Positions 2,690 to 13,395 of a stretch of DNA of 13,443 nt are shown piece after piece. The DNA lies in contig CAJWGI010000010.1 of the NCBI GenBank assembly GCA_913031335.1, positions 1 through 13,443 of the forward strand. Direction: 5' to 3'. The notes beneath the pieces were generated by a model. That model had not been told where the DNA came from. It saw only the letters and a list, made by a program, of their open reading frames with translations, and made no database searches. Source of the DNA: an uncultured Anaerolineales bacterium (lineage in GTDB: Bacteria; Chloroflexota; Anaerolineae; Anaerolineales; UBA11657). The number at the start of each line of letters is the position of its first letter. Positions within the stretch are counted from its first letter, which is position 1. Made by a program: the position numbers and the translations under genes.

Positions 2690-5041
2690 ATGACCTTCGA
2701 TCTGCAAAGCCTGCCGAAAATAGTCTCCCTGCAACTGCGCATCAGACAGTACCCTATCCTGGGCAGCGCCATCCGCGAGCGCATGCAGGAAGAGCTTTTC
2801 AACCGGGGCGTGATAACGCCGGAACGTCTGGAAGAAGAGGTGCACGAGCGGGCGGTCGCCTCGCAAAAACTGGAGGGTTTAGAGGACCCATTCACGGAGG
2901 AGCCACCCGACATCTGGCACGAACGTCTCCACCACGTCCGCGATTATCTCACCGAGTTCTACTTCGCCCACAACGTGCCTGCGCAGGTGTTCGATAAAAT
3001 CGTGGCGGGGCTGCTAGAAGACCGCACCGGTACAGAAACTCCGGTGACCCGGTTGAAGTACAACCCCGAAATGGCGCCGCTTGCCCTGGTGATGAGGCAC
3101 GGAAAACGCATCGAGGCGCTGCCGCCGGAAAAACGCAAGGAGATGGGCCACCATCTGCAGGAAATAATCGTGGTCATCATCAAAACCATCGTCAGCGATC
3201 GGCTGGAGTACGTCGGCACCGCGCGTAAATGGTTCACGATCGAGGACCTGTGGGACATACGCCGCCGCCGTTTTGGCAAGGGAAAAATCGGCGGCAAGGC
3301 GGCCGGGATTGAGCTGGCCTGGAAAATTCTGCAGAGCGACAAACAGCTTTCGGAAGAAGTGCGCGTGCCCAAATCGTATTTTATCGCCACAGACGTGTTC
3401 GACCGCTTCAAACGCGCCAACGACCTGGTGAGCGTGATGAACCAGAAGTACAAACCGGCAGCCGAGGTGCGGGAGCAGTATGCCGGCATCAGGCATGATT
3501 TCGCCGCCGGCCAGCTGCCGGATGAAATCCTCGAGAACCTGCGAAACCTGCTGCAGAAGAGCGGGCGCACACCGCTCATCGTGCGCTCATCCAGCCTGCT
3601 GGAGGATTCATACGGCACCTCCTTCGCAGGCAAGTACGACAGTTATTTCTGCGCAAATCAGGGCAGCCCGGAAGATAACCTTGAGGCGCTCACTCTGGCC
3701 ATCACGCAGATTTACGCCAGCGTCTATAGCCCGGACGCACTGCTCTACCGGCAGAGGATGGGCCTCTTAGACTACAGCGAACGCATGGCCATTCTAATAC
3801 AACTCGTCGAAGGGGAGCAACACGGCCTCTGGTTCTTCCCTTCCATCGCCGGCGTGGCGTTTAGCCGCAACCCCTTCCGCTGGACCCCCCGCATTAAACC
3901 CGAGGAAGGACTGGTGCGCGTGGTCTGCGGACTGGGCACCCGCGCCGTGGAACGCACAGATGACTACGCCCGCATGATCGCGCTCAGCCACCCGATGCTA
4001 CGGCCTGAAAGCGGGGCGGACGCTATCCGCCATTATTCACAGAAAAAGATGGACCTTCTAAACCTGGAGACCAATCGACTTGAGACCCAGCCGATAGCCG
4101 AGGTGCTGCATGGCAGGCTACCATGGGTCCGGTTGTTGGCCACGCAGCACAGTGATGGTTATCTGCGGAAGTTGCTCATGTTGAACCCGAACATCGACCC
4201 GGCCAGCCTTGTGCTCACTTTTGATCAGCTGCTGCAGCAGACCGAATTCGTGCCACAGGTCAAACGCATGTTGAAGCAACTTTCCAAACACTATGACACC
4301 GCCATAGACGTCGAATTCACCGCCCGGGTCGTGCACGAGGGCAAGGCGCCAAAGGTCAGTCTCTGTCTGGTGCAGTGCCGCCCCCAGAGCTTCCGGGCCG
4401 ACCGCGCGGCGGAGGCCATCCCGCAGGAAATTGAGGAAGCTGACAAGGTTCTCAGAACCGGCAGCATGGTGCCGGATGGTCGCGTGGACGGCATCACCTT
4501 CGTTGTAGTGGTACCGCTGGACGAGTACGAAGCGCTGGCGGATCCGGTCAAGAAAATCAGCATCGGCCGCGTGATTGGACGGCTAAATCAAGTCCTTCAG
4601 GGAGAGCCTTTTGTGCTGATTGGGCCACACCGCTGGGGAAGCAACAACCCCGACCTTGGCGTGAAAGTGACCTATGCGGACGTTTACAACACTCGCATGC
4701 TAATCGAACTGGTGCCGGGCAGCGGCGCCGAAAGCGGTGAGCCCTCCTACGGAACTCATTTCTTCCAAGACCTGGTGGAGGCGAATATTTTCCCGCTGGC
4801 TATTAACGTGGATGATGAGAGGGGTTTTTTCCACGCCGCGCATTTCGCGGATGCGCCCAACCTGCTCGCGCAGCTCAGCCCCGAGGACGCCGATTTCGCC
4901 GACGTGGTGCAGGTTTACAATCTGCCGGCGACGTGCGGCGGGAAGACCTTGAGTGTGGTGATGGACGCTTCCTCAGAAGAAGCGCTGGGCTTCCTGACAG
5001 ACGCCCGCAAGCCAAAATCCCCAGAATCACCTGATGCCTGA
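2690..5041 (+). CDS. PEP/pyruvate-binding (PPDK N-terminal) domain protein lacking phospho-His domain
   Basis: A 783-residue soluble protein. After a helical N-terminal region of about 190 residues comes an ATP-grasp-like domain of the PEP synthase/pyruvate phosphate dikinase type. Visible motifs are GKGKIGGKAAGI at 196-207 (nucleotide loop), VRSSSLLEDSYGTSFAGKYDSY spread over 298-319, GVAFSRNPF at 388-396, and the closing IDVEF...LVQCRPQ at 539-566. The swivelling domain with its T-S/C-H phospho-histidine and the C-terminal PEP/pyruvate barrel of the full enzymes are absent. Residues 570-783 form a different C-terminal region, with HRWGSNNPDLGV and SYGTHFFQDLVE, that I cannot assign. It is therefore probably not a complete PEP synthase; it may use ATP on another substrate or need a partner carrying the phospho-acceptor. 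It lies 27 bp after the isomerase and 27 bp before the RNase H gene, so one operon is likely. No ribosome binding site is visible before the ATG. Confidence 0.75.
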   Translation: MTFDLQSLPKIVSLQLRIRQYPILGSAIRERMQEELFNRGVITPERLEEEVHERAVASQKLEGLEDPFTEEPPDIWHERLHHVRDYLTEFYFAHNVPAQVFDKIVAGLLEDRTGTETPVTRLKYNPEMAPLALVMRHGKRIEALPPEKRKEMGHHLQEIIVVIIKTIVSDRLEYVGTARKWFTIEDLWDIRRRRFGKGKIGGKAAGIELAWKILQSDKQLSEEVRVPKSYFIATDVFDRFKRANDLVSVMNQKYKPAAEVREQYAGIRHDFAAGQLPDEILENLRNLLQKSGRTPLIVRSSSLLEDSYGTSFAGKYDSYFCANQGSPEDNLEALTLAITQIYASVYSPDALLYRQRMGLLDYSERMAILIQLVEGEQHGLWFFPSIAGVAFSRNPFRWTPRIKPEEGLVRVVCGLGTRAVERTDDYARMIALSHPMLRPESGADAIRHYSQKKMDLLNLETNRLETQPIAEVLHGRLPWVRLLATQHSDGYLRKLLMLNPNIDPASLVLTFDQLLQQTEFVPQVKRMLKQLSKHYDTAIDVEFTARVVHEGKAPKVSLCLVQCRPQSFRADRAAEAIPQEIEEADKVLRTGSMVPDGRVDGITFVVVVPLDEYEALADPVKKISIGRVIGRLNQVLQGEPFVLIGPHRWGSNNPDLGVKVTYADVYNTRMLIELVPGSGAESGEPSYGTHFFQDLVEANIFPLAINVDDERGFFHAAHFADAPNLLAQLSPEDADFADVVQVYNLPATCGGKTLSVVMDASSEEALGFLTDARKPKSPESPDA

Positions 5042-5068
5042 TACGCGCTGAAGCGGTCAACTCCAGCC

Positions 5069-5965
5069 GTGCCAAACACTGAAATCACAGTCGTCACCAT
5101 CTACACCGATGGCGCCTGCGACCCCAACCCGGGGCCGGGCGGCTGGGCCGCGATCTTACGTTACGGTGCGCGCCAGAAAGAGCTTTACGGCGGCGAAGCG
5201 GATACAACCAACAACCGCATGGAGCTGCGCGCCACCATCGAAGCCCTCGCTGAACTAACGCGTCCGTGTCAGGTTGAACTATACACGGATTCGGAATACC
5301 TGCGAAAAGGCGTAACCGAATGGCTGCCTCGCTGGCAGGCACAAAAATGGCGCACGCGCAGGAAACGACCGGTCGCCAACCAGGACCTTTGGCGCAGATT
5401 GGCCGAGGCGAGGCAGCCGCACAGAATGCGCTGGCACTGGGTGAAAGGGCACGCCGGTCACCCGCTAAACGAACGCGCAGACAGCCTGGCGCGGAAGGCA
5501 ATCCCGCGAGCAGACTTTCCGCTGCCTGATGCAACCGCTGTTCATGTGTTCACCGGCGCATCCTGCAGCGGCCCGCGCGGCCCCGGCGGCTGGGCGGCGG
5601 TGCTGCGACAGGGGGACGAGGTTAGCACGCTGTCGGGGCGAGAATCAAAGACGACAGCCAATCGTCTGCAGCTGCTGGCAGCGGCGCGCGCCCTGAGCGC
5701 AACTCACGGGCACAGGCGCAGGCGCATTCACATGTACACGCCCTCCGATTACGTCCAGCGCGGAGCCACGCAGTGGATGCCAGCGTGGCAGCAGCGCAGC
5801 TGGAAAACCAGAACCGATCAGCCAGTGAAGAACCGTGATCTGTGGCATGAAATCGCGGCCGCTTGCGCAGAAAGTAAAGTCCGCTGGCACCTAGCAAAGT
5901 CTGGCGCGCGCCCGCAGGAAAGCGCAAACGCGCACGAGCTCGCCTGCAAAGCCGCGTCGAGCTGA
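5069..5965 (+). CDS. rnhA: Tandem ribonuclease HI with a degenerate second domain
   Basis: RNase HI cuts the RNA strand of RNA-DNA hybrids (R-loops, primers). Residues 8-146 form a complete domain: catalytic Asp14 ([15 protein letters not shown]), Glu52 (NNRMEL), Asp74 (YTDSEYL), His128 (KGHAGHP) and Asp138 (NERADSLA). Residues 157-296 repeat the same fold in the same order (VFTGASC...[43 protein letters not shown]). At the five matching positions it has Gly163, Gln201, Pro225, Gly279 and His289, so it cannot bind the catalytic metals. The tryptophan-rich basic handle (residues 84-108 and 235-259) is kept in both copies, suggesting a substrate-binding role. The start is GTG at 5069, 27 bp after the previous stop; no ribosome binding site is obvious. 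The gene ends 2 bp from the convergent glgX. Confidence 0.9.
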
Positions 5966-5972
5966 ATTCAGC
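5961..5972. repeat. Palindrome containing both convergent stop codons
   Basis: GCTGAATTCAGC is a perfect 12-bp palindrome. The TGA of the RNase H gene (5963-5965) and the TGA of glgX on the other strand (5968-5970) are its two symmetric halves. It is too short and loop-free to be a convincing terminator. Confidence 0.6.
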
Positions 5973-8004
5973 GCGCGATTACAACCACAACCGAGCGGGC
6001 GCTCACAGAATAACGCTCGCCATCCACGCGCAAAGCATGCGCCGCAGTATTGATATCGTCCGGAGAGGCGCGGGCGGTGTCCAGCAGGCGGCGCCAGCCG
6101 CAATCGGGCAGCACGGGCAAGCGGAATTGCAGCGCTTCCGAGTGAGCATTCGCCATCATGTGCAGCGCATCAACCTGTTCATCCGCCCGCAAAGTGAAAG
6201 CGAGCGTGTGGGAATGATGGCTCCAATCGGGCTGCTGCAACTCCACCCCGTGCCACTGAAGCTGCTTCTCTGTCGGGAAATCGGGCAGGCGCAGAGCCGG
6301 CCATTCCGTGCGGAAGCGCAGCAACATGCGCACAAAACGTTGCAGCCCCGCATGCTCGCGCAGCAGGCCCCAATCGACCCACGAGATCTCGTTATCCTGA
6401 CAGTACGCATTGTTGTTGCCCTGCTGCGTGCGCCGGAATTCATCTCCGGCCAGCAGCATGGGCGTGCCCTGCGCAAGCAGCAGCAGCGCGACCGCGTTTT
6501 TCATCGGACGGGTGCGCACAGCCTGCACTTGGGCGTCGGTAGTCGCGCCCTCCACGCCGTGGTTGCAGCTATAGCTCGCCGGGTGGCCATCAGCGTTGTC
6601 CTCGCCGTTAGCGTGATTGTCGCGCTGATTGTAGGAGACCAGGTCATTGAGCGTGAATCCGTCGTGGCAGGTCACATAGTTAACGCTGCGCTGCGGCCGG
6701 TGCCCGAGAAAGATGCCAGGGCTGCCCTGAAACCGGTCGGCCAGAGCCGGCACCATGCCCGCGTCTCCGCGCACAAAGCGGCGCACATCGTCGCGAAAGC
6801 GGTCATTCCACTCCAGCCAGCGGCCGCCGGGAAACCTGCCGAGCTGATGCAACCCGACGGCGTCCCACGGCTCCGCGATGATTTTGGTCTGGGAAAGCAG
6901 CACATCATTTTCGATTTCTAGCAGCACGGGCGGTTTTTCAAGTGGTTTCCCATCCTCACCGCGCGCGAGCGCAGCGGCCAAATCAAACCGAAAGCCGTCA
7001 ACGTGCATATCCCGCACCCAGAAGTGCAGGCAATCGAGAATCATGCGCCGCATCACCGGATGGTTCGCATTGACAGTGTTTCCACAGCCACTGAAATCCA
7101 TGTAGTGGGCGCGGTCTTGCGGGTCGCTCAGATAATAGCTGCCACTGTCAAATCCACGCCAGCTGAATGTCGGGCCGGCAGCGCCGCCCTCCGCCGTGTG
7201 ATTGAAAACCACATCGAGGATGACTTCGATTCCCGCGCGATGGCAGGCTTTGACCATATCGCGGAACTCGGTCACCGGCGCGAGCGGGTCGCTCTGATTG
7301 ACGCAATAGCCCCGATGCGGGGCGAACCACGCCACCGGCTGGTATCCCCAGAACTGGCGCAACTGCTCGCCTGTCACCGGGTTGACTCTGCCAATCTCGC
7401 CGGGGTCAAACTGCTGCACCGGCAACAGCTCGATGGCGGAAACGCCGAGAGACTGAAGATAGGGCAGCTGCTGCGCCAGCCCGGAATATGTGCCCGGATG
7501 AGCGACTCCGGAGGAAGGGTGCCGCGTGAAACCACGCACGTGTAGCTCGTAGATTACGGTCTCGCGCAGCGGGCGCCGCAGCGGTGCATCCCCCTCCCAA
7601 TTATAAGCGGCGGGGTCCACAACCACGCTTTTGAAACTTTGGGAAGGGCGCTCGGCGTCGGGCGAGTACATGACGGCGAGAGCGTACGGGTCGAGCAGCA
7701 CTCCGGATTCGTCAGCACTCACGGTGCCTTCAGGCGCCTGCCGGGCGGATACGCGCCAACCATAAAGTTGCCCGGCGGTTACATCGCGCAGCAGCACATG
7801 CCAGCAGTCGTCCGTACGATTTTCCACCGGGTCTAATGTAATTTCTCGGGCCGGACGCGCAGAGGAATGGTGGTCGAAGAGCAGCAGCGAGACTGCCGTG
7901 GCCGCCTCGGAGTGAACGCAGAAATTGACGCCCTCAGCGCCCACGCTGGCGCCGAGCAGCATCGGCCAAGCCGCGCTGGGAACTACACCCGCGCCTGTAG
8001 CCAC
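5968..8004 (-). CDS. glgX: Glycogen debranching enzyme GlgX
   Basis: A 678-residue GH13 isoamylase-type debranching enzyme that hydrolyses alpha-1,6 branches left after phosphorylase trims glycogen, in the cytosol. Domain order is normal: an N-terminal carbohydrate-binding domain (about residues 15-115, with GVNFCVHSE), the TIM barrel, then a beta-rich C-terminal domain. Catalytic motifs are complete: VFNHT at 266-270, the nucleophile Asp341 in VDGFRFD, the acid Glu378 in IIAEPWD, and Asp448 in TCHDGF. Length is typical of GlgX/TreX. The GTG start at 8004 lies inside the preceding hydrolase gene (22-bp overlap), which implies translational coupling. An in-frame ATG 14 codons further in (7962) is possible, but the residues before it (AAWPM) align with the family's usual W-P-G...L-G-A start. 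It faces the RNase H gene tail to tail. Confidence 0.93.
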   Translation of the reverse strand: MATGAGVVPSAAWPMLLGASVGAEGVNFCVHSEAATAVSLLLFDHHSSARPAREITLDPVENRTDDCWHVLLRDVTAGQLYGWRVSARQAPEGTVSADESGVLLDPYALAVMYSPDAERPSQSFKSVVVDPAAYNWEGDAPLRRPLRETVIYELHVRGFTRHPSSGVAHPGTYSGLAQQLPYLQSLGVSAIELLPVQQFDPGEIGRVNPVTGEQLRQFWGYQPVAWFAPHRGYCVNQSDPLAPVTEFRDMVKACHRAGIEVILDVVFNHTAEGGAAGPTFSWRGFDSGSYYLSDPQDRAHYMDFSGCGNTVNANHPVMRRMILDCLHFWVRDMHVDGFRFDLAAALARGEDGKPLEKPPVLLEIENDVLLSQTKIIAEPWDAVGLHQLGRFPGGRWLEWNDRFRDDVRRFVRGDAGMVPALADRFQGSPGIFLGHRPQRSVNYVTCHDGFTLNDLVSYNQRDNHANGEDNADGHPASYSCNHGVEGATTDAQVQAVRTRPMKNAVALLLLAQGTPMLLAGDEFRRTQQGNNNAYCQDNEISWVDWGLLREHAGLQRFVRMLLRFRTEWPALRLPDFPTEKQLQWHGVELQQPDWSHHSHTLAFTLRADEQVDALHMMANAHSEALQFRLPVLPDCGWRRLLDTARASPDDINTAAHALRVDGERYSVSARSVVVVIAR

Positions 8005-8849
8005 TCGGTGAGGTCCGCCAGCACCTGATGCTTCTCAGGCTCGTTGAGCACTTCGTGGTAAAAGCCGGCGTACATCTTCAGGCCCTTGTCGTCAGAACGC
8101 GCGCGCGCGTGGAACTGCCGACTTCCATCCGGCCCGGAGAGGCGATCCTCCGACCCGTGCAGAATGAGGAAAGGCAACGTGGCCTGCTCCAGGGCTGCTT
8201 GCAGCCGTATCACGGCTCCGTTAATCTCCGCGCCGGTACGGGCGCACAGGCCTTCTCGATAGACAAGCGGATCGCTGTCATATGCCGCCGCCACGTCCGC
8301 ATCGCGGGAGATGGAGGCGCTGTCCAGTTTCATTACCTTCAGGCGCGGCAGCAACCGGCCAACCAGTGGCGCGATTTTCACCAGCAGTGGGGGCACGTCT
8401 TCGCCGATAATGAGCAGCGGGCCGCTGAGCACCATTCCGCGCACGGCGGGGTTTCGAAAGACCGCCAGAGTGGCCACAATCAACCCTCCCGTGCTGTGCC
8501 CCAGCAGAAAGACCGGTTTGCTGGGAAGCTTTTCGCGCGCCCGGACGAGCACGTGCTCCAGATCATCCAGGTAATCGTCAAAACGCTCGATGAAGCTCCG
8601 CTCACCATCCGAGAACCCGTGGCCGCGCTGGTCGTAGGCGCACACCGCGAATCCATTCTGCGCGAGATGCTCACCCACGTGCGCATGGCGGCCGCTGTGT
8701 TCGGCGATACCATGCACAATCAGCACAACTGCGCGGGGGTCGCCACCGGGCTGCCACCACTGTTCGTAAAGGGTCGCTCCGTCCGGAGCGGAGAATTTGC
8801 CTTCGCTGTATCGCGCCGATTCTTGCATGGTAATGCCCGCTCCCAACAT
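7983..8849 (-). CDS. Alpha/beta hydrolase, monoacylglycerol lipase type
   Basis: A 288-residue serine hydrolase of the lysophospholipase/monoglyceride lipase group (Hydrolase_4), expected to split acyl esters such as monoacylglycerols in the cytosol. The oxyanion motif HGIAEHSGRH is at residues 46-55, AYDQRGHGFSDGER at 71-84, the nucleophile Ser119 in GHSTGG at 117-122, and the acid and base are Asp235 (HGSEDRL) and His265 (GFYHEVLNE). No signal peptide is seen. Two starts are possible: ATG at 8849 and ATG at 8828. The second has GGGAG about 11 bases upstream and begins close to the conserved region, so either could be used. It lies 45 bp after the thiolase-dehydrogenase chimera and overlaps glgX by 22 bp, so the three look co-transcribed. 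The exact substrate cannot be read from the sequence. Confidence 0.88.
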   Translation of the reverse strand: MLGAGITMQESARYSEGKFSAPDGATLYEQWWQPGGDPRAVVLIVHGIAEHSGRHAHVGEHLAQNGFAVCAYDQRGHGFSDGERSFIERFDDYLDDLEHVLVRAREKLPSKPVFLLGHSTGGLIVATLAVFRNPAVRGMVLSGPLLIIGEDVPPLLVKIAPLVGRLLPRLKVMKLDSASISRDADVAAAYDSDPLVYREGLCARTGAEINGAVIRLQAALEQATLPFLILHGSEDRLSGPDGSRQFHARARSDDKGLKMYAGFYHEVLNEPEKHQVLADLTEWLQARV

Positions 8850-8894
8850 CGCCTGTCAATCATCGTAAAAACCATAGATGTGTTTCGCTCCGGG

Positions 8895-10106
8895 TCAAGC
8901 ATATTCACAAAAACCTCGACCTGTCTTCCGCCCGAGACGCCCGGCTGCCACCATCTTGCGCAACAGCGGGCAGGGGCGGGACTTGTCCTCGCCGAGGTCG
9001 CGGTGCAATACCTCCATAACATGCAGCAGCACGTCAATGCCGACCAGGTCGCATTGTTCCAGTGGCCCCATCGGATGGTTAATACCCAGTTTCATCACCG
9101 CGTCTATCGCCTCCGGAGTGCCGACCCCCTCCACCAGCGCACAGACGGCCTCGTTCACCATCGGACAAAGAATGCGATTAGAGATGAAACCGGGCGAATC
9201 ATTCGCCTCCACCGGCGTCTTGCCGAGCGTCTCGGAAAGCGCCACGGCGGTGGCCGTGGTCTGGTCAGAAGTGGCCAGCCCGCGCACAATCTCCACCAGC
9301 GCTGCCGCGCCGTCGTCACCGCCGGGTGAATTCCCGGCGGTGACGATGCCATCATCGACAAACGCGGGCGGCAACTTGGCCAGCGCGGGCAGCGAGGTTT
9401 CGCGCCGCGGGGCCTCGTCTTGCTTGACCACAGAGGTCGTGCCATCACGCGCTTTGACTGGCACCGGCACGATTTCCGCCGTGAATTTTCCGGCGTCCAT
9501 AGCGGCGACCGCCTTCCGGTGACTGAGCAGCGCGAACTCGTCCAGCTCTTCCCGGGTCAATCCGTACTCAGCGGAGATGAATTCAGCTGCCTCGCCCATC
9601 ATCCATCCCTGCAACGAGCAGCGCAGCCCGTCCTGGATAAGCGCGTCGACGACGGGCTTATTTCCTAACCGCGAGCCGCGCCGCGCCCACGGCAATATGA
9701 AAGGCACTGCGCTCATGTTCTCCATGCCACCGGCAACCAGCAAATCCGCGTCCGCCGCGCGGATTGCCTGCGCTGCCAGCATCACCGCCTTCAGGCCGGA
9801 GGCGCACATTTTGCTCAGAGTGGTGGCCCCGACCGCAGCCGGAAGACCGGCGGCCATCCCGGCCTGGCGGGCGGGCGCCTGGCCCGACCCGGCGGAGACC
9901 ACCTGCCCCATCAGCACCTCGGCGATATCGTCCGCGTTTACTCCGGCGCGTTCGACAGCCGCACAAATGGCCACTGCGCCGAGCTCGGTCGCGGTGACCC
10001 CGGCCAATGCGCCTGCGAATCGGCTCACCGGCGTGCGCGCCCCGCTAAGAATGACAACGTCATCGGGTTGTTTTGCGTGGCCCGGGGTCACCGCGTTCTC
10101 ACTCAC
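8895..10106 (-). CDS. In-frame chimera: thiolase N-terminal part + 3-hydroxyacyl-CoA dehydrogenase C-terminal domain
   Basis: One open frame of 403 residues contains parts of two enzymes. Residues about 14-270 are acetyl-CoA acetyltransferase (thiolase): [14 protein letters not shown], the nucleophile Cys101 in [17 protein letters not shown], and [17 protein letters not shown]. The thiolase C-terminal domain with its active-site His and second Cys is absent. Residues about 270-403 are the C-terminal helical domain of 3-hydroxybutyryl-CoA dehydrogenase: [52 protein letters not shown]. Its NAD-binding Rossmann domain and catalytic His are missing; the dyad Glu is probably Glu272, right at the joint. 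The joint (about 9290-9300) falls on Leu-Val-Glu, which both parents normally have there. Neither activity should work as in the parents. The start is GTG directly after GGGGGA, or GTG at 10091. It lies 8 bp after the decayed HIT 3' end. Confidence 0.85.
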
Positions 10107-10114
10107 TCCCCCTT

Positions 10115-10292
10115 CTAGAGCAACTCAGTAATCAGATCGCGCAGCCGCCGATATGTCACCGCCAACTCCTCGGAACGATGCGCGTTTTCGCCATGGTAGT
10201 CATAAATTTGTTTCGCCCGCCCAGCGCGGACACACATGCATATGCACGTGCTCGGGCACGCCCGCGCCGCCGGCTGCGCCGATGTTCACGCT
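10115..10292 (-). pseudogene. Frameshifted 3' fragment of a HIT-family gene
   Basis: Homologous to the last third of the intact HIT gene at the right end of the window, covering its residues 107-164. The catalytic histidine triad region (GVPEHVHMHV) is still readable. Two single-base deletions, between 10173/10174 and between 10203/10204, break the frame; the second makes a stop at 10200-10202. With both bases restored, the peptide matches the intact protein at 49 of 58 residues and ends at a TAG at 10115-10117. By my hand alignment the nucleotide identity is about 82 percent over 176 columns. No N-terminal part is recognisable beyond 10292, where similarity stops abruptly. The fragment ends 8 bp before the thiolase start, so it looks like the former 3' end of an operon gene. 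Confidence 0.85.
10233..10291. repeat. 59-bp near-perfect direct repeat, left copy
   Basis: Matches 13021-13079 at 57 of 59 bases, in the same orientation. This is the part encoding the HIT catalytic loop; outside it, toward the stop codon, identity drops to about 75 percent over 117 columns. Confidence 0.85.
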
Positions 10293-10392
10293 TTGGTACA
10301 TGGTTCCTCGATGCCTAGCGATTCGCCTTGTCGCCCACCAACATGCATAGGCTGTAGAGCGAAACGACGTCTCCACACCAGAAGAGAAATGA

Positions 10393-10407
10393 CTGCACAG
10401 CATGCAG
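10393..10407 (-). terminator. Weak possible terminator after the membrane protein gene
   Basis: On the minus strand, just after the TAG at 10410-10412, CTGCA and TGCAG form a 5-bp stem with a 5-base loop, followed by the pyrimidine-rich TCATTTCTCTTC. The stem is short and the tract interrupted, so it may be inactive. Confidence 0.2.
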
Positions 10408-10409
10408 GG

Positions 10410-12725
10410 CTAGACGCGGGCACGCCGGGACGAGAAATAGGCCAGAGCAAACAGCACCAACGCCAATCCATAAAGACTGCGGTAGCCAAGATACATGGAG
10501 TTGTATTCAAGAAAGCCACCAACCATGGCTCCCAAAAGGTTGGGGCCAAGAGCCGCGCCAGCACTAACGCCACGAGCGTTGAGTTCACTCGAAAACGCTA
10601 GACCAGAGAACAATAATGGCAAGGTGAGCAACACCACGGCAACTATCTTAGCCGATCCCATCGGGAATATCCCTGACGCGTTCACTCCCGATCCATACAT
10701 CCCGACCAACAGAGATGTGGCTATCAAAGTGTAAGCAAATGCTGGCCGTACGGAACCCATCTTTATGACAGTGAAATTTGCTAGGTAGGCCATAGCTAAC
10801 ACTCCTGCAATAGTCGCGCTTACAACCTGCCACGTGTTGCCGAAAGTTAGCCCTAGTTCCGTGATAGCCTTGGTCTCCACCAACAAAAACCCAGCCCCGA
10901 GAAAGAAGAAAGTAGCGGTCGCAGGTGTAGTGACTGTCGGTAAGAACTGCCATATCGTGACAGCGGATACCACCACCAGAATAACCAACAAGTACACGTA
11001 CGTTAGAGGGAAGATACGGATCGGCATGTACAGAAATGGCCAGTCGTCAGTCGACACGTCAGCTGCAATACTAGGGTCAGATACAACGGAGGTAATCTGA
11101 CGATAATATGAGGTATTCGCCCTAGCGGATACCGCGCTCAATGCCGGGCCAGCGATAAACATGGGCCACTGCTCTCGACCCTTTGTGACGTAAACTTCAG
11201 GAGTTTGACCATCAAATGCCTGTTGCATCGTCAGGTACATCTTGCGAGCATGGGCAGGCGAGATTACGGCAAAGGTAACGACGAGGAGGCCTTCGTCGGT
11301 GAGGATTTGACGCGCTTCTTGAAAAGCCTCCACTGTATACACGAAACTGTCCAGACGGACGGAAGAAAAACCGCTAAGGGAGCTCTGGGCATCCAGCAAT
11401 CCGTAGACGACAAGATCGTATTTTTTTTCTGTATTGCGAATGTATGATCGCGCGTCGTCCAACACGGCTGACACCCGTGGAGATGAATATGGCTGTTCTG
11501 GATGCAACTGGCGCCCATAATTAAGAATCACTGGGTCAATTTCAACCGCGTCAACCTGAGAAACATTGTCATGCCGTACGGCTGCTGCGACATCGTTGCC
11601 AGTACCACTTCCTACTACAAGGACAGAGGCCGCATCGGGCTTGATCACATAGGGAAAATCATAACCCCGTCCTTCCGCTTCCATGTTCGGGAATCGCCGG
11701 ATTGCCTCGGGACGCAAATCATACATCCGCTGGTACCACAAATGATTGACCTCCAGAAACGGGGAAACTCCCGCGTCGACCCTCAGTGTGAGAACCTGAT
11801 ATGGCGAGTAGCGTTCAACCGCATTTGCCGCAGTGGGTAGACTTACTACAGTAACAGCGACCGCCATCGCTGCACCCGACGTCAATAACGCAAGCGCATG
11901 GCCTCGGAGAAACCATAGTAGCCAGCAGCCTCCTATGAGCAGCCAAACAGCTGGTGGTGCCCACAGATAGGACAAACCTGTAAAAAGTCCAATTCCCAGC
12001 AAAGAACCTGCCAAGTTCAAACCGTAGGCGCGCAATCGAGGACGTCGCATCATGATTCGCGCAACTAGCTGACCCAATGGAACAAACGTAAGGCCATTGA
12101 CCATGAAAACAATCGCCAAAAATCCGTATATAACCAGCGCATTCTGCCATGTCGCCGGCTGCATGGCTTGTGCTGCGCGTTCGGCGACTGGATTAACAAG
12201 CAGAAACTGAAGAGGCGTCAACCGCGCTAAACGCAGGAGCACAAACTGAGCCGCAAGAGCAGGCAACACCAACGGCATAGCTATAAAGCGTACTGCACCA
12301 AGCCCATAGCCAAGTCCAAGCCCCAGAAAACAGGAAATAAGACTAATGTTCTTAAATAGCGAAAACATCCTCAGTTCTGAGCCATGCCAGCGTATCACCA
12401 TGAGCTCTATATAGAGCCCCAAAGCACTGGCAAGCAAGATAGACGAATTGACGCGATGTTCGGGGATCGCATCCAAGAAAGTTGTGTACCGATTCAAATG
12501 CGCCTTAAGCCGCGGCCACCACTGCTCACGCGAGCGCCACACCCATATCCACGCAAGTAACTCGAGCAGCAAAATGATGACCGCTGAGACAACCTTCCAC
12601 CATCGGAGAGTGGTTGACAATACTACCCCAAACAGAAAGGCCGCTGAAGCTATGAATAAGGTGACTTCCAACAGCAGCGCACCATCATTTTTATGGCGCC
12701 TAAAGAGACCACTGATAATATTCAA
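10410..12725 (-). CDS. Multi-span membrane protein with spermidine-synthase-like methyltransferase fold
   Basis: A 771-residue protein in three parts. The N-terminal third has about eight or nine membrane spans between residues 20 and 298. Residues about 305-570 form a soluble Rossmann domain like that of spermidine synthase: VLVVGSGTGNDV at 368-379 (cofactor loop), AVEIDP at 393-398, DDARSY at 423-428 and the tail motif TDDWPFLY at 559-566. The C-terminal third has about seven more spans (571-765). Soluble spermidine synthases have a catalytic Asp in a D-S-x-D-P motif after the fourth strand; here that stretch reads VVYGLLDAQ (439-447), so the key Asp is replaced and aminopropyl transfer is doubtful. 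Known relatives are annotated only as spermidine-synthase-like membrane proteins; the substrate is unknown. The start is TTG, supported by GAGGGAGGA 5 bases upstream. Lower GC and the flanking repeats suggest acquisition. Confidence 0.8.
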   Translation of the reverse strand: MNIISGLFRRHKNDGALLLEVTLFIASAAFLFGVVLSTTLRWWKVVSAVIILLLELLAWIWVWRSREQWWPRLKAHLNRYTTFLDAIPEHRVNSSILLASALGLYIELMVIRWHGSELRMFSLFKNISLISCFLGLGLGYGLGAVRFIAMPLVLPALAAQFVLLRLARLTPLQFLLVNPVAERAAQAMQPATWQNALVIYGFLAIVFMVNGLTFVPLGQLVARIMMRRPRLRAYGLNLAGSLLGIGLFTGLSYLWAPPAVWLLIGGCWLLWFLRGHALALLTSGAAMAVAVTVVSLPTAANAVERYSPYQVLTLRVDAGVSPFLEVNHLWYQRMYDLRPEAIRRFPNMEAEGRGYDFPYVIKPDAASVLVVGSGTGNDVAAAVRHDNVSQVDAVEIDPVILNYGRQLHPEQPYSSPRVSAVLDDARSYIRNTEKKYDLVVYGLLDAQSSLSGFSSVRLDSFVYTVEAFQEARQILTDEGLLVVTFAVISPAHARKMYLTMQQAFDGQTPEVYVTKGREQWPMFIAGPALSAVSARANTSYYRQITSVVSDPSIAADVSTDDWPFLYMPIRIFPLTYVYLLVILVVVSAVTIWQFLPTVTTPATATFFFLGAGFLLVETKAITELGLTFGNTWQVVSATIAGVLAMAYLANFTVIKMGSVRPAFAYTLIATSLLVGMYGSGVNASGIFPMGSAKIVAVVLLTLPLLFSGLAFSSELNARGVSAGAALGPNLLGAMVGGFLEYNSMYLGYRSLYGLALVLFALAYFSSRRARV

Positions 12726-12888: not shown

Positions 12889-13395
12889 TCAACTGCCCTC
12901 CCCTAGAAGCCAGGCCATCAGATCGCGCAACCGCCTGTGGGTCACCGCCATTTCCTCGGGAACAATGCGCGTCTCGGCGACGGTGGTCATGAAATTGGTG
13001 TCGCCCGCCCAGCGCGGGAGCACATGCATGTGCACGTGCTCCGGCACGCCCGCGCCGCCGGCTGCGCCGATGTTCACGCCCACGTTAAACCCCTGCGGCG
13101 CGTACACCCTACGCAACGCCCGCAACGCAATCTGGCTCAGGCCTCCCAATTCGCTCATCACCTCGGCAGGCAAATCCTCCAGCGAGGGCACGTGCTCCGC
13201 GGGCACCAGCAGTATGTGCCCGTTGCTGTAAGGGTATTTGTTCAGCATAGCCAGCACGTGAGCGCCCCGATGCAGCACCAGGTTACTTTCATCTGACTGC
13301 GCTTCTTCCAGCGTCCGGCAGAACAGGCAACCACCCTTCGCCTCACTCTCGCCGCGCAGATAACTCATGCGCCAGGGCGCCCACAGATTCTTCAT
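12889..13395 (-). CDS. HIT-family nucleotide hydrolase/phosphorylase (Ap4A phosphorylase-like)
   Basis: A 168-residue cytosolic protein of the histidine triad superfamily, acting on nucleoside phosphate derivatives such as diadenosine tetraphosphate. The triad H-V-H-M-H-V is at residues 120-125, followed by LPRW. A CLFC pair at 23-26 is the likely zinc knuckle seen in many bacterial members, and NKYPYSNGHILLVPAEHV at 52-69 is the typical N-terminal half of the fold. The start MKNLWAPWRMSYL is characteristic of the Ap4A-phosphorylase-like branch and supports ATG 13395. The gene is intact. Its 3' third, from residue 107, is duplicated in decayed form near 10.2 kb. The next gene downstream is the membrane protein after a 163-bp gap, whereas the old partner was apparently the thiolase. 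The exact nucleotide substrate cannot be fixed from the sequence. Confidence 0.9.
   Translation of the reverse strand: MKNLWAPWRMSYLRGESEAKGGCLFCRTLEEAQSDESNLVLHRGAHVLAMLNKYPYSNGHILLVPAEHVPSLEDLPAEVMSELGGLSQIALRALRRVYAPQGFNVGVNIGAAGGAGVPEHVHMHVLPRWAGDTNFMTTVAETRIVPEEMAVTHRRLRDLMAWLLGEGS
13021..13079. repeat. 59-bp near-perfect direct repeat, right copy
   Basis: The partner of the repeat at 10233-10291, lying inside the intact HIT gene over the catalytic histidine loop. It is the likely crossover zone if recombination produced the present arrangement. Confidence 0.85.

Follow-up and report, generated by a model that had tools for sequence, protein, structure and literature searches.

Is an open reading frame that begins as a thiolase and ends as a 3-hydroxybutyryl-CoA dehydrogenase a working protein, the relic of a deletion or an error of assembly? 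This question is raised by a stretch of 13,443 nucleotides (the window, whose features are collected in Table 1), in which the two gene parts are joined with neither a stop nor a frameshift. Using Pfam, we found Thiolase_N at residues 17-271 (profile positions 1-255 of 260) and no match to Thiolase_C, followed by 3HCDH_N at residues 269-303 with profile positions 145-179 of 180 only, and by a complete 3HCDH C-terminal domain (residues 306-402, profile positions 1-97 of 97). The joint codons, GCG CTG GTG followed by GAG ATT GTG, run in frame at Leu-Val, and both halves of the frame have a codon-like GC pattern by codon position. In a comparison with chains of solved structures, the first part resembled acetyl-CoA acetyltransferases, and the second, from chain residue 148-149 onward, resembled 3-hydroxybutyryl-CoA dehydrogenases. 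Cys101 is invariant in the 33 aligned rows, the fused protein among them, and Glu272 of the dehydrogenase part is kept. The Pfam matches and the joint codons agree with the first-pass annotation, which had read thiolase with Cys101 up to about residue 270 and then dehydrogenase in one uninterrupted frame, and the Pfam matches also bear out its view that the thiolase C-half and most of the Rossmann domain are lost. It had placed the joint in a shared Leu-Val-Glu, of which Leu-Val holds but Glu does not, the thiolases of relatives having Val, Leu, Ile or Phe at the next position.

Table 1. Features of the fused locus and its surroundings, in window positions.
Feature	Positions	Strand	Remarks
Alpha/beta hydrolase (S33) gene	7983..8849	minus	Downstream of the fused ORF
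Fused ORF	8895..10106	minus	403 aa (403 codons), GTG start
3-hydroxybutyryl-CoA dehydrogenase part	8895..9293	minus	Begins at Glu codon 272, ends at the stop; lacks GxGxxG and the MHFFNP His
Putative joint microhomology	9293..9300	minus	GCTGGTGG, 7-8 nt
Thiolase N-half	9294..10106	minus	Residues 1-271, Cys101 kept; C-half absent
Inverted repeat (hairpin)	9313..9346		14-bp perfect arms 9313-9326 and 9333-9346, 6-nt loop
Four-base block GGTG	9317..9320	minus	Codons 263-264, Gly-Asp; perfects the hairpin
HIT-family 3' fragment	10131..10291	minus	Frame-broken; directly upstream of the fused ORF
Spermidine-synthase-like gene	10410..12725	minus	Between the two HIT copies
Intact HIT-family gene	12889..13395	minus	

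Thiolase catalysis uses an Asn, a His and a second Cys in the C-half of the protein, and 3-hydroxyacyl-CoA dehydrogenases use a catalytic His-Glu pair, which we take here to be the His in MHFFNP and the Glu in LVE. The motifs NEAFA, GGAIALGH and CLGGG are present in the thiolases P0002 and P0005-P0007 and absent from the fused protein, and the dehydrogenase His went with the deleted part, as did the NAD-binding GxGxxG. Because the Asn, His and Cys partners of the thiolase lie with its C-half, and the His and NAD site of the dehydrogenase, in what was lost, the fused protein should, judged by its sequence, carry out neither the thiolase nor the dehydrogenase reaction.

From what arrangement did the fusion arise? 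Among the matches listed, intact thiolases reach 92% (P0002), 80% (P0005) and 75% (P0006) identity over 65-66% of the query, and the intact dehydrogenases P0121-P0129 reach 86-92% over the 134 residues searched, with P0121-P0124 at 91-92%. Two thiolase-dehydrogenase (thl-hbd) pairs, P0005/P0127 and P0006/P0128, are probably linked, since the longest contigs of the two members are equal in length (203,861 and 6,788, respectively). In loci of the same order, HIT lies upstream of thiolase in 22 of 29 and the dehydrogenase downstream in 13 of 29, the misses being due in part to want of sequence, as the flanks of these 29 loci measure about 1.5 kb or less. Among 80 other loci on genome contigs, 15 have a dehydrogenase no more than 3 kb after the thiolase, and none has HIT ahead of the thiolase. 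The order HIT-thl-hbd in same-order relatives thus supports the earlier suggestion that the two genes were ancestral neighbours and, because a HIT fragment lies directly upstream of the fused frame, the locus looks like a damaged form of this old operon. Neither the operon context nor the HIT fragment had been noted in the first-pass annotation. In 11 of the 13 intact same-order pairs, 877-975 bases lie between the points of the joint (1361 and 1426 in the two others), from which we derive a deletion of about 0.9 kb, in keeping with the 0.8-0.9 kb proposed before. The DNA of intact sisters was sought with P0005 as query at E 1e-170 in the class (396 genomes) and the phylum (400) and gave no hit, a weak negative, since the first four candidates per shown row were scored; a contig search gave 62% identity at best, with records near the window's genome possibly excluded. 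As a separate observation on these relatives, P0121 and P0122 are identical from the ILATNTSSISIT motif onward and clearly different in their N-parts, either through recombination or as a metagenome chimera.

A direct repeat of 9 nt had been proposed at the joint. We found a repeat there, but a shorter one: the run common to both genes amounts to 6-8 nt in 8 of the 26 relatives with both genes and to fewer than 6 in 18 of 26, and it reads approximately (G)CTGGTG(G) and not the whole CTGGTGGAG. The relatives give no support to a repeat of the full CTGGTGGAG, as their thiolase codons that follow Leu-Val do not encode Glu. The closest intact relatives are represented by proteins only, so that the pre-deletion bases and the true length of the repeat are unobserved. 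The join would fall in frame even without selection, because the thiolase Ala-Leu-Val and the dehydrogenase Leu-Val-Glu share their Leu-Val codons in one phase.

Next to the joint lies a second mark, which the first-pass annotation did not spot: the fusion is ordinary in kind, and this hairpin scar is unusual. Only 12 nt from the microhomology, the hairpin is the longest perfect inverted repeat of the window with a loop of 3-10 nt; when the whole window was shuffled 60 times by dinucleotides, arms of 14 bp were reached once, and the folding of the hairpin gave z-scores of -4.5 and -5.2. The four central pairs (7-10 from the loop) all form here, while 14 of 17 relatives have none of them and 3 of 17 have one, the 17 being those of the 29 same-order loci in which the stretch was found by motif. 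The same block changes two residues, 263 from the Leu, Ile or Met seen in 117 of 117 thiolases to Gly, and 264 from Asn, Thr or Ser, again in 117 of 117, to Asp. According to the accessible part of a report on Escherichia coli, template-switch mutation can make an imperfect inverted repeat perfect (PMC7202029), and a report on yeast genes, in its accessible part, describes multi-base changes from such mutation (PMC8604942). As in these quasipalindrome-associated template switches, so far as the accessible text describes them, adjacent changes in one arm would have perfected an inverted repeat here (PMC7202029, PMC8604942); unlike those cases, the hairpin lies 12 nt from the joint of a 0.9 kb deletion, and the event is reconstructed and was not watched. 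From this comparison we infer that the four-base cluster is the mark of a template-switch mutation.

We propose that an ancestral HIT-thl-hbd array lost about 0.9 kb between the thiolase Ala-Leu-Val codons and the dehydrogenase Leu-Val-Glu codons, in a deletion that would have used the 7-8 nt common to both sites. Replication probably stalled at the quasi-palindrome that directly precedes the thiolase site. By folding back, the nascent strand could then have used its own first arm as a template, a step that would have perfected the hairpin and turned Leu-Asn into Gly-Asp; slippage to the site in the dehydrogenase gene may have come next, in the same or in a separate event. That the template switch and the deletion belong to one event is our guess. 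We consider it likely that the locus arose by such a deletion fusion and that its product is a fairly recent relic which would do neither reaction. A far bolder version, in which a single complex replication error (fold-back copying, then a jump of about 0.9 kb to the 7-8 nt microhomology) accounts for the perfect hairpin as well as for the in-frame chimera, the latter being expressed today and retained as a novel acyl-CoA-binding protein, seems to us highly improbable.

An assembly or library chimera of two intact genes would give the same frame, and the fragmentation of the bin (351 contigs, 73% complete) and the pair P0121/P0122, whose common C-part with different N-parts suggests chimeras or mosaics in such metagenomes, speak for it. 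When 5.8 billion proteins were searched and 8000 candidates scored, however, the best match to the fused protein was cluster P0001, the same protein, a cluster at 90% identity whose 15 member sequences come from 9 contigs; the longest of these contigs, at 95,440 bases, places one member on a longer piece than the window's own contig of 13,443 bases. The joint probably recurs in other members, with the qualification, which favours the chimera, that P0001 is known by its representative sequence only and that its 9 contigs may share samples. A query with residues 241-300 gave 132 proteins at E <= 0.001, with P0001 at 109 bits and the next at 48, and only P0001 has both Pfam families among the 120 matches listed of these 132; in the whole-protein and dehydrogenase-part searches (the best 120 listed for each) P0001 and P0003 have both. 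Furthermore, the bin holds no close intact copy, its only matches besides the fusion being two thiolases at 38-39% identity. Because P0001 occurs on 9 contigs and the 7-8 shared bases would be too few for an assembler overlap, we regard the fusion as a genuine in-frame deletion fusion; a lone assembly join, one of three outcomes offered earlier, is unlikely, and a chimera of two intact genes appears very improbable overall. A different proposal, not exclusive of a relic, is that the block from a glgX-like gene to the HIT fragment came by horizontal transfer via recombination at HIT, the fusion having arisen earlier or later. HIT was found in 6 of 9 other genomes of the family, convergent with and adjoining RNase H in those 6 (the gap by the listed ORFs is 26 bases in G002 and 127 in G001), while in the window's genome the two are 6.9 kb apart, separated by the glgX-like gene, the hydrolase, the fusion, the HIT fragment and the spermidine-synthase-like gene. 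In line with a transfer, among 400 genomes of the order, the window's own included, only the own genome passed with the fused protein at E 1e-100, so that the 399 others drawn gave no match at this level or better. Yet other families of the order commonly have HIT-thl-hbd, so that loss in sister genera would explain the block as well, and the HIT fragment is similar to the intact copy in its own genome; we take the transfer as possible and hold to it only tentatively. Aligned with the intact copy over 163 positions, the HIT fragment is 86% identical and has lost a single base at two places, and the two copies together are, by their sequences, a duplication or recombination scar. The spermidine-synthase-like gene between them has a GC content of 0.50-0.53 over most of its length, against 0.59-0.67 over positions 5001-10500.

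Could the fused protein instead be produced and retained for acyl-CoA binding or for a regulatory role? The N-half of thiolases carries the nucleophile and the CoA-binding loop domain, and the C-half of the dehydrogenases is a dimerising helical domain. The frame is open over 403 codons with its GC codon pattern kept in both halves, P0001 was found on 9 contigs, and the fused frame has no known indel, as against two in the 163 positions of the HIT fragment (given equal age and the absence of constraint, the expectation would be 14.9). Against this, the HIT fragment may be older than the fusion, and a young relic without selection would also keep an open frame: the probability of no stop without selection is 0.75, 0.57 and 0.42 at 1, 2 and 3% change, so that the open frame is no proof of function. 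The protein lacks half of the thiolase fold and the greater part of the Rossmann domain, P0001 is the sole listed match to residues 241-300 that combines both families, and strongly conserved sites have changed. Taking the columns in which 95% or more of the relatives agree, from 113 and 110 background proteins with the listed sisters set apart and P0003 and P0004 excluded, we found that the fusion departs at 4 of 92 in the thiolase and 6 of 88 in the dehydrogenase part. Residues 263 and 264 lie outside this count because neither column reaches 95% for one residue. Tyr376Ser, Leu351Gln, Met342Ile and Tyr400Cys fall in columns in which 109-110 of 110 proteins agree. These changes point to a relic, but are only a hint, since sisters depart at similar sites too: those set apart do so at 0-6 (thiolase) and 2-5 (dehydrogenase) columns, P0005 at 6 against 4 here, and P0121, P0122 and P0124 at 5 each against 6 in the fusion. 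Relative-rate counts were 7 versus 5 (p 0.77), 11 versus 6 (p 0.33) and, without the edge of the joint, 5 versus 5 for the thiolase part, and 6-7 versus 1-3 (p 0.13-0.34) for the dehydrogenase part, so that this test gave no significant speed-up in either half (p 0.13-1.0). Between the dead relic and the acyl-CoA-binding protein considered in the first-pass annotation, we favour the relic, short of proof, and regard a kept protein as rather unlikely.

Does the genome hold intact counterparts, as had been asked? It contains two other complete thiolases, one on contig C232 and one on C57, the former adjoining a gene that we read as FadB-like and that is cut by the contig end, and a piece of a 3HCDH C-domain at the end of C206. 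These thiolases and the FadB-like protein would, by their sequence assignments, make the loss bearable. An intact thl-hbd pair may also lie elsewhere in the genome, the bin being 73% complete.

How does the fused protein compare with known systems? Its N-half with Cys101 is like that of biosynthetic thiolase (acetyl-CoA C-acetyltransferase; among solved chains, 7cw4 and 4o99 are the closest by sequence), which differs in having the C-half with the NEAFA, GGAIALGH and CLGGG motifs. Its second part has, like 3-hydroxybutyryl-CoA dehydrogenase (Hbd; solved chains by sequence 9fbd and 4pzc), the whole 3HCDH C-domain and the Glu after Leu-Val, but lacks about the first 150 residues of Hbd, where the NAD site and the MHFFNP His lie. 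P0003 unites the same two genes in one frame and the same order; it differs in that nothing is deleted, is 56% identical over 68% of the query, and comes from one contig of 7,182 bases, perhaps as a read-through or a sequencing slip. As an observation in its own right, its 693 aa comprise a complete thiolase read through into a complete dehydrogenase with a short linker, which may be a true bifunctional fusion or a lost stop. A literature search on thiolase, this dehydrogenase and gene fusion gave, in the text portions that it covered, one match, a paper on synthetic scaffolds; such a fusion may nevertheless be in print. The locus offers a clean natural case of how neighbouring genes can fuse in frame without selection, the same dipeptide lying in the same phase in both, and is a warning that fused domains need not be functionally linked. 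In annotation, a protein of this type may easily receive the name of a thiolase or of a dehydrogenase. Should the scar be confirmed in strains, it would connect template-switch mutation with a deletion that fused two genes in a wild bacterium.

Two further observations concern the neighbourhood. The RNase H protein at 5069-5965 contains two RNase H stretches in tandem, an internal repeat that tblastn also found in at least 3 family mates. A 783-aa gene at 2690-5041, which on our own reading may be PEP-synthase/PPDK-like, is absent from the genus mate G001, where its neighbours lie side by side, and present in 8 of the 9 other family genomes.
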